64,000 bases of DNA from an uncultured delta proteobacterium. GTDB taxonomy: Bacteria; Desulfobacterota; Desulfobulbia; Desulfobulbales; Desulfurivibrionaceae. The position numbers and the translations under genes are program-made. How positions within the stretch are numbered: the stretch's first letter is position 1; every line of letters begins with the position of its first letter. Where the stretch lies: contig CAIPYE010000017.1 of NCBI GenBank assembly GCA_903869265.1, forward strand, positions 124,001 through 188,000. The letters are read 5' to 3'. Below, piece by piece: positions 51,906 through 58,101 of the stretch. The notes beneath the pieces were generated by a model. The model saw only the letters and a program-made list of their open reading frames with translations, ran no database searches and had not been told where the DNA came from.

Positions 51906-52667
51906 TTATGCAGCCATTCCCGCCGCGCGCGAGGCCTTTCGGGGCTGCATCCACAGTTGGGCACGTTCTTCCACTGTTACCTGACAGGAATCCTCGGAGC
52001 GGACAGCAGCGTTTTGGCAGATGGTGTCGTGCCCCATCGTGGCGGCGCGGGTCAGCTCGGCTTCGGCCAGAGCCAGAAGCTGCTCCGCAGCCATGGTATC
52101 GTAAGCATGGCAGACGGCGATGCCCAGGGACAGGCTTGGGGTAACGGCTCCGGTTCCCTTGGCGAAAGCGGTATTGCGCAGGGTGGCCCGCATTTCCTCC
52201 GCCCGTTTTCTGGCCTTGCCCACCGTGGTGCCCGGCATGATCAGGGCCAGGCCGTCTTTCTGGAATCCGGAGAGCAGATCCCCCGGATGCAGGCAGGGGG
52301 CAAGCGCTCTTGCCCCCTGTTCGGCCAGGGGACTGGCCCCGGAAAGCGTGATCAGGAGAAGGGCACAGGGCAATCTGGTCTGCCGGACCCGGTCCATTTC
52401 CACTGCCAGTTGCTGGCGGAGCCAAGCCTGGTCAGGCAGTTTTTCGTCGTTTTTTTCGACCGAAGCCGTCCGGGGCTGGTCGGTAAAACGCAGGCCTGCC
52501 AGAACGGAAGCCATTTCCGAAGCGGGAATGGTATCGTCGATGAGCAACAACCCCAGAGGCTCTGGCCCTTTTCCGGTGAGCCTGATGGCGCGGACAGGGT
52601 GCTGCCGGGCCTGTTCTTCAAGGCTACGATAGAGCAGAGCAGTATCCGAGGGGACCTTCCGGTTCAT
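51906..52667 (-). CDS. Degenerate GGDEF-like protein
   Basis: 253 residues. The C-terminal half has the secondary-structure pattern of a GGDEF domain: PCALLLITLSG (first strand), LHPGDLLSGFQKDGLALIMPG, and GAVTPSLSLGIAVCH (the SxGIA strand). The signature loop reads SGFQKDG in place of GGDEF, so cyclase activity is very unlikely. The N-terminal part (1-90) resembles nothing I know. Its start overlaps the metG stop (ATGA), so it is cotranscribed. It may bind a nucleotide or act as a protein partner of the next gene, a MinD-like ATPase. Confidence 0.65.
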   Translation of the reverse strand: MNRKVPSDTALLYRSLEEQARQHPVRAIRLTGKGPEPLGLLLIDDTIPASEMASVLAGLRFTDQPRTASVEKNDEKLPDQAWLRQQLAVEMDRVRQTRLPCALLLITLSGASPLAEQGARALAPCLHPGDLLSGFQKDGLALIMPGTTVGKARKRAEEMRATLRNTAFAKGTGAVTPSLSLGIAVCHAYDTMAAEQLLALAEAELTRAATMGHDTICQNAAVRSEDSCQVTVEERAQLWMQPRKASRAAGMAA

Positions 52668-56757: not shown

Positions 56758-58101
56758 TCAGGCGGTCGGGTCGGGGCGATTCCTGATGACCAGCTGGACC
56801 GCCTCAATAATCTCGGAAGATTCCGGACCCTTGCGGATCACCAGATCGGCACCGGCGTCCAAGGCTTGTTGCTGGACTTCCGGGCGCTCATCCGCGGTGA
56901 ACAGCAGGAGCTTCACCTCGGCGCAATCCGGGTGGCTCCGGATTGCCTTGCAGATTTCAATGCCGGAGAGCAGCGGCAGGATGTAGTCAATCACCGCTAC
57001 CGCTGGTTTCTCGGCAAGGATCAGAGCCAATCCTTCCTGGCCGTTGGTCGCGGGCAGGGGGAGGAACCCGGCTTTTTGCAGGAGACGGCTGTAAAGCCTT
57101 AAGATAACAGGGTTGTCATCGACGATCACAACCTTGTGCGGGGCAATGGTTTCGCCTGCGGTTTGCGGTTCGCTGAAGTCTTGGAGAACCAGAAGTTGAT
57201 CCCCCTGGCGCAAAGAAATTTCCGGGCCGGGAAAGATGGTGTCCTGCCCACTGCGGCGCAAGCCGAAGATGCGGGTGCCCATTTGCCGGGAAACCTCTTC
57301 GATGGTGATTCCTGCCATGCTCGATCCTTCCTGCACCTCGATCCACTGGCTGGCAAGGGATTCCTTGCCAGCCTGCCTACCGGTGGCAACGAGGAGGGCT
57401 TCGGCAATGCGGATTCCGGCCGAGGCAAAGGGAGAAATGACATTGTCGGCGCCTGCCCGGAGAATCTTGTGCTCCGAGGTGAGGTCTTCGGCGCGGGAGA
57501 TGATGTGCAGGGTGGGGTTGAGTTCCCGGGCGGACAAGACAATAAAGAGGTTGTCCGGGTCTTTGTTGAGCAGGGCGATCAGGCCGGTGGCCGATTTGAT
57601 TCCGGCCGCCCGCAGCGTTTCTTCATGGGTGGCATCGCCGTGGATGTGGAGATGGCCCTGTTCCGCGATGTGCTGGCAGTGTTCCGCCGAATTTTCAATG
57701 ATTACGAAATCAACCTGATTGGCCTTGAAATGTTCCGCTGCCGCTGCGCCCACCCGTCCATAGCCGCAGAGGATGAAATGTGACTTGAGCTGGGCAATCT
57801 TCTTGTTCATTTTTTTTCTCTCCTTACCCCCGGTCCAGACCGTTTCCATGACGGAGCCGACCAGGGCGTGGCTGGCAAAGGCCAGGCCGCTGAATCCCAT
57901 GACAATGTAGCCTGTGGTGAAAAGTCGCCCTGTGTCGGACAGCGGGTGCACCTCCCCAAAACCAACCGAGGTCAGGGTGATGACCGACATGTACAGGGCC
58001 TCGATAAAGGTGAAGCCTTCAATCCCCATGTAGCCCAGGATGCCCACCAGGATGAGGGCGAGAATGGCTGCCAGGGTCCAGATGATCCGATGGGGTTTCA
58101 C
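56758..58101 (-). CDS. Two-TM potassium-channel / RCK (TrkA-N, TrkA-C) / receiver-domain fusion
   Basis: 447 residues. Two membrane helices (about 8-28 and 62-84) flank a pore loop with TLTSVGFGEVHPL, a variant of TVGYGD. An RCK Rossmann domain follows (about 105-220, HFILCGYGRVGAAAAEHF), then a TrkA-C domain (about 240-315), and a complete receiver domain (about 325-447) with IVDDNPVILRLYS, phospho-acceptor Asp in AVIDYILPLLSG, LLFTAD and VIRKG. This would be an MthK-like K+ channel gated by a cytoplasmic ligand, with a phosphorylation input added. No kinase is adjacent. The Tyr-to-Phe and Asp-to-Glu changes in the filter (GFGE) occur in some prokaryotic channels. Confidence 0.85.
   Translation of the reverse strand: MKPHRIIWTLAAILALILVGILGYMGIEGFTFIEALYMSVITLTSVGFGEVHPLSDTGRLFTTGYIVMGFSGLAFASHALVGSVMETVWTGGKERKKMNKKIAQLKSHFILCGYGRVGAAAAEHFKANQVDFVIIENSAEHCQHIAEQGHLHIHGDATHEETLRAAGIKSATGLIALLNKDPDNLFIVLSARELNPTLHIISRAEDLTSEHKILRAGADNVISPFASAGIRIAEALLVATGRQAGKESLASQWIEVQEGSSMAGITIEEVSRQMGTRIFGLRRSGQDTIFPGPEISLRQGDQLLVLQDFSEPQTAGETIAPHKVVIVDDNPVILRLYSRLLQKAGFLPLPATNGQEGLALILAEKPAVAVIDYILPLLSGIEICKAIRSHPDCAEVKLLLFTADERPEVQQQALDAGADLVIRKGPESSEIIEAVQLVIRNRPDPTA

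Follow-up and report, generated by a model that had tools for sequence, protein, structure and literature searches.

A family of MthK-type potassium channels with a conserved receiver domain on the channel chain and a predicted soluble RCK-receiver subunit

The channel-RCK-receiver gene

The gene described here lies in a 64,000-nucleotide stretch of DNA that was analysed as a whole and is referred to below as the window. It forms a single open frame without internal stops (Table 1), and its Pfam matches for Ion_trans_2, TrkA_N, TrkA_C and Response_reg each score above the curated cut-off. The order of pore, RCK Rossmann domain, TrkA-C domain and receiver given in the original prediction is thus borne out on the 447-aa ORF, and the pore string quoted there, TLTSVGFGEVHPL, agrees with the sequence. 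An Ion_trans_2 pore with a GxG filter is present, as in MthK-type two-helix K+ channels, and TrkA_N and TrkA_C follow the inner helix, as in the RCK part of such channels. Judged from its sequence, the gene product is an MthK-type K+ channel with a receiver on its own chain. No NCBIfam model spans the complete channel-RCK-receiver architecture.

Table 1. Positions of the channel gene, its domains and key residues in the window, and of the Hpt-bearing channel genes of three relatives (locus coordinates)
Feature	Position	Strand	Details
Channel-RCK-REC gene	56758..58101	(-)	447 aa, GTG start
Two-transmembrane K+ channel pore, Ion_trans_2, residues 13-79	57865..58065	(-)	Pfam 1.9e-13
Selectivity filter TSVGFGE, residues 44-50	57952..57972	(-)	second filter Gly in 33/35 fused relatives listed
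Internal Shine-Dalgarno AAGGAG	57820..57825	(-)	9 nt before internal ATG; dG -9.2 vs anti-SD
Internal ATG (Met98)	57808..57810	(-)	14 residues ahead of RCK CG motif, the MthK Met107 position
RCK Rossmann domain, TrkA_N, residues 109-224	57430..57777	(-)	Pfam 2.2e-34
RCK C-lobe, TrkA_C, residues 253-306	57184..57345	(-)	Pfam 2.8e-8
Receiver domain, residues 323-440	56782..57135	(-)	Response_reg, Pfam 2.1e-19 over 324-436; model fold
Phosphoacceptor Asp372 (predicted)	56986..56988	(-)	invariant in 35/35 fused relatives listed
Conserved receiver Lys424	56830..56832	(-)	in 34/34 readable fused relatives listed
Channel-RCK-REC-Hpt gene	L022:1402-3270		Hpt C-terminal to receiver, Pfam 1.1e-9
Channel-RCK-REC-Hpt gene	L036:9866-11854		Hpt C-terminal to receiver, Pfam 7.4e-11
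Channel-RCK-REC-Hpt gene	L038:8960-10840		Hpt C-terminal to receiver, Pfam 4.5e-13

A same-strand gene for DNA polymerase III delta' (DNA_pol3_delta2) lies downstream across a gap of 56 bases and is followed by a gene for a PSP1-domain protein (Pfam). The next ORF we take, from its letters, to be methionyl-tRNA synthetase, and the divergent upstream ORF to be purL; these neighbours point to no function for the channel. A GGDEF-like protein (51906-52667, minus strand; partial Pfam match, 1.2e-8) is encoded with a 4-base overlap with the end of the presumed methionyl-tRNA synthetase ORF.

The pore aligns with the MthK and NaK chains, and a fold search with the channel-RCK part returned MthK, as the top matches, and GsuK. 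Gating by Ca2+ in the manner of MthK was considered and rejected: the residues that we take to be the MthK Ca2+ ligands, Asp184, Glu210 and Glu212, align with Leu177, Arg203 and Glu205 here, so that the first two are not conserved, and Leu177 and Arg203 are themselves kept as such within the family. Mutants of MthK at D184 and E212 are named in PDB titles among the structure-search matches. The RCK Rossmann domain is of the nucleotide type, with a GYGRVG loop and Glu136; across the family the GxGxxG loop is kept, and the second strand ends in an acidic residue, Glu136 here and Glu or Asp in all members. With two of the Ca2+ ligands replaced and these features retained, a nucleotide appears the likelier RCK ligand, by analogy with GsuK, which is activated by ADP and NAD+ (PMC3510474). 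GsuK of Geobacter sulfurreducens (PDB 4gx0) is the best sequence match and its RCK is also of the nucleotide type, but it has two tandem RCKs per chain and no receiver (PMC3510474). The Ca2+-gated MthK of Methanothermobacter (PDB 1lnq, 6oly) shares the two-helix pore and the single RCK per chain, and its internal start lies at the position of the one predicted here; it, too, has no receiver.

Fused relatives and their distribution

A profile scan covering some 85,000 species genomes yielded at least 21 fused loci, or at least 35 with those found earlier. At least 25 remain after removal of redundancy at 80%, and identity ranges down to 43%. On the family profile the fused proteins score at least 560 bits, against at most 305 bits for the 63 unfused MthK-like channels listed. 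Within the genus, 5 of 17 genomes, counting the one studied here, have the full-length fused gene, the relatives being 89–94% identical; outside the genus identity is 43–57%, with 46–57% for further families belonging to the same order and phylum. The possibility that a sequencing or assembly error had joined two adjacent genes, named in the original prediction as a ground for refutation, is ruled out to near certainty by these full-length relatives within the genus and beyond, the same fusion being found in at least 35 loci from many assemblies. The domain order had also been called unusual; the architecture is real, but with at least 35 loci it marks a broadly distributed family and is no isolated curiosity. 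No description of channel-RCK-receiver proteins came out of literature searches, which mostly covered journals open without subscription, and the architecture may already stand as an uncommented entry in domain databases.

In a tree built on the channel-RCK part only, the fused loci listed form one clade (SH-aLRT 99) apart from the 63 unfused channels listed. This single clade, together with a single change between the fused and unfused states on the tree, points to one old fusion. The members listed belong mostly to the Desulfobulbales and to other Thermodesulfobacteriota; the fused locus L039, from Desulfogranum mediterraneum DSM 13871, is identical in sequence to L017, a locus from the order of the window's organism, and this places that organism in the Desulfobulbales. 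Copies in MAGs labelled Bacteroidota, Chloroflexota and Calditrichota are also among the fused loci. Both the Bacteroidota copies (L031, L034) and the Chloroflexota copies (L033, L036) come as MAG pairs from different projects, which suggests horizontal spread of the fused gene, with wrong binning as the alternative. The viral contigs searched held no relative. An apparent giant fusion, a 2928-aa ORF in L044, proved to be a masked run of N.

The unfused bacterial MthK-like channels, such as L002 from the same genome, are about 34–42% identical over pore and RCK and share the internal-start signature described below, but they stop after TrkA_C. In the genome studied here, the unfused channel-RCK genes L002 and L003 lie about 2 kb apart on contig C3, and a similar close pair is seen in L089.

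Fused and unfused channels differ in the selectivity filter as well. Ser in place of the usual Thr is confined to this genus among the fused members listed, and the remaining ones have TVGFGE or TVGYGE, except for L029 (TVGFSE) and L032 (TVGFAE). The second filter Gly is canonical in 33 of the 35 fused loci listed, whereas 37 of the 63 unfused relatives listed have lost it, and this better retention suggests that conduction matters in the fused clade. Where an unfused filter lacks the second Gly, its place is taken by Arg, Lys or Ser, or by some other residue (TVGFRE, TVGYKE, TVGFSE), for example in L046, L047, L050, L057 and L058.

An internal start and a predicted soluble subunit

In the MthK gating ring, four RCK domains are tethered and four are soluble, the soluble ones being translated from an internal start at Met107 (PMC9440719, PMC2920069). 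An alignment places Met107 14 residues before the RCK CG motif, and Met98 of the protein described here at identical spacing. The Met98 codon follows a strong Shine-Dalgarno (SD) sequence (GGTAAGGAGAGAAAAAAA-ATG; duplex energy -9.2), and the GTG start of the full-length chain has none (dG +2.2). This probable internal translation start had escaped the original prediction; it is supported by the SD sequence and the conserved start codon.

The codon at the site is ATG in 33 of the 35 fused loci listed, and ATG, TTG or GTG in 46 of the 55 non-redundant unfused loci listed. The following P values treat loci as independent and are optimistic, since the loci are not fully so: the non-redundant fused loci have a mean SD energy of -5.07, whereas shuffling synonymous codons within the same genes gives -3.39 (Wilcoxon p 8e-4) and other internal ATGs give -2.85; that of the unfused relatives is -7.6, against -3.78 after synonymous shuffling (p 3e-10); where the unfused proteins have Leu at the site, TTG encodes it 16 times out of 18, when 2.6 such codons would be expected from those genes (P 4e-13); and where the fused proteins have Glu four residues before the start, the codons read xxG-GAG, which yields GGAG, in 15 of 18 cases, against 2.4 expected (P 2e-12). 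Val at the site in unfused channels is always encoded by GTG. These preferences indicate that start codon and SD sequence are selected at the DNA level across the fused and unfused families. On this ground a 350-aa soluble RCK-REC subunit is predicted, and the gene probably yields a separate soluble RCK-REC copy from the second start inside it; the signature for this predicted product is present at Met98 and under selection.

SD-like runs have also been proposed to slow ribosomes, and the stretch before Met98 lies shortly after the second transmembrane helix, so that it might act as a translational pause for membrane insertion instead of a start. We regard this as very improbable, because a start codon stands at the appropriate distance with the frequencies given above, down to the choice of TTG for Leu, and because MthK starts at the identical position. 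Even in L033 and L036, the two fused loci where ATG is missing from the site, another ATG lies five codons upstream behind a GGAG of its own. SD sequences are rarely used in Bacteroidota, which fits their absence from the internal start of the Bacteroidota copies (L031, L034). In the subclade of L040, L041, L042 and L044, the internal SD is weak or absent, and this counts against the explanation that we prefer.

If the selection has the meaning proposed, soluble RCK subunits may be the rule in bacterial MthK-like channels. A mixed ring of tethered and soluble RCK domains, kept by selection at the mRNA level, is suggested as a general feature of these channels, and the internal start would have practical consequences for heterologous expression or recoding of their genes. 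Among the 63 unfused channels listed (L002, L003, L018, L019, L045-L103), an SD of GGGAGG type is widespread, with ATG, TTG or GTG following it where MthK has Met107.

The receiver and its probable link to phosphorelays

The C-terminal domain had been described as a full receiver with an Asp acceptor and a Lys, and it holds up on both residues and fold. D328/D329, the acceptor D372, T402 and K424 are all present; D328, D329 and D372 are invariant in the 35 fused relatives listed, and T402 and K424 in the 34 that are readable there. In an AlphaFold2 model, residues 323–440 adopt a (beta-alpha)5 fold, in which five strands and the helices between them mostly exceed a pLDDT of 90, and the preceding residues 309–318 form a low-confidence linker. 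The monomer model of the whole chain has a pTM of 0.44, so that it does not predict where the receiver sits with respect to the ring, a point that counts against our preferred explanation. All catalytic residues and the fold are shared with receivers of the CheY/DivK/PhoB type; these, however, have a DNA-binding output or are free proteins, whereas the predicted output here is a channel gating ring. Receivers usually act on transcription, enzymes or motility. As an intact receiver has been conserved over an old clade, its most likely use is phosphorylation by a histidine kinase, and such a kinase may therefore have direct control over the opening or closing of an ion channel.

The original prediction had noted no adjacent kinase, and this extends to the whole window, which contains no HATPase_c match; on the contig, the closest one lies about 18 kb away, and genome-wide there are 78 HATPase_c matches and 5 Hpt domains. 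A motif scan of the flanks of relatives found one kinase-like ORF (L035, about 1.8 kb away) and none near the others, and the relatives examined have no conserved real gene neighbour, which counts against the preferred explanation. The kinase would thus be unlinked. Large neighbour clusters in the relatives turned out to be antisense frames of the channel gene. Three relatives (L022, L036, L038) are channel-RCK-REC-Hpt proteins of about 620–660 aa, and their REC-Hpt tails speak for a link between the receiver and phosphorelays.

The explanation that we prefer, and consider probable, is an MthK-type channel with an octameric RCK-REC ring, in which phosphorylation of Asp372 shifts gating on top of a nucleotide-type ligand. 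Four full-length chains would form the pore, and, on the pattern of MthK, four soluble RCK-REC chains from the Met98 ATG would complete the octameric RCK gating ring. Below the C-lobe of every ring subunit a receiver would be attached by a flexible linker, giving up to eight RECs per channel if the MthK ring arrangement holds. A histidine kinase or kinase-Hpt relay encoded elsewhere would phosphorylate Asp372, which would alter receiver pairing or the contact between receiver and ring and so shift the open probability, in addition to the effect of a nucleotide-type ligand in the RCK fold. The sequences themselves show which domains are present, that the catalytic residues are intact, that the fusion is conserved and that the internal start is under selection; we infer the octamer assembly, the phosphorylation, the direction and size of the conductance effect, and the identity of ligand and kinase. 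That phosphorylation would set the conductance, as originally proposed, we infer likewise. A broader proposal, in which a two-component phosphorelay directly gates the channel family through an eight-receiver ring, half of it contributed by soluble RCK-REC, and the Hpt-bearing channels are relay stations, is advanced tentatively, at slightly less than even chances.

Signals might also flow in the reverse direction, the RCK ring sensing a nucleotide, the flux of K+ or the state of the membrane, and the receiver being a phosphate acceptor, sink or relay stage through which the channel would report to a phosphorelay. This rival has to be taken seriously, above all for members with an Hpt, whose REC-Hpt tails are laid out like the phosphate-passing second half of a relay. 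The Amt5-type ammonium transporter-histidine kinase fusion likewise combines membrane transport and a two-component domain on one chain; its transport domain is the sensor of the kinase, an example of sensing by a membrane transport domain (PMC5764959), whereas in the channels it is a receiver that is attached. Most members listed, including this one, end at the receiver without an Hpt, however, and the better-kept K+ filter Gly speaks for conduction, so that we judge reverse flow unlikely overall. It is improbable that the receiver serves chiefly for structure or dimerisation, with little part for phosphorylation in gating. Such a role would agree with the unlinked kinase, and receiver folds that are not phosphorylated (pseudo-receivers) exist (PMC12632262), but the catalytic residues are all invariant over a deep clade, and a scaffold needs none of them.

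If direct gating by phosphorylation is true, the gating-ring receiver would give bacteria direct, fast and reversible control of a membrane conductance, and how a phospho-signal moves a well-understood gate would become testable. The Hpt-bearing loci occupy three separate places on the channel-RCK tree, indicating that the Hpt was gained or lost more than once. L033 is probably a fourth Hpt-bearing relative, with its contig ending at that point.
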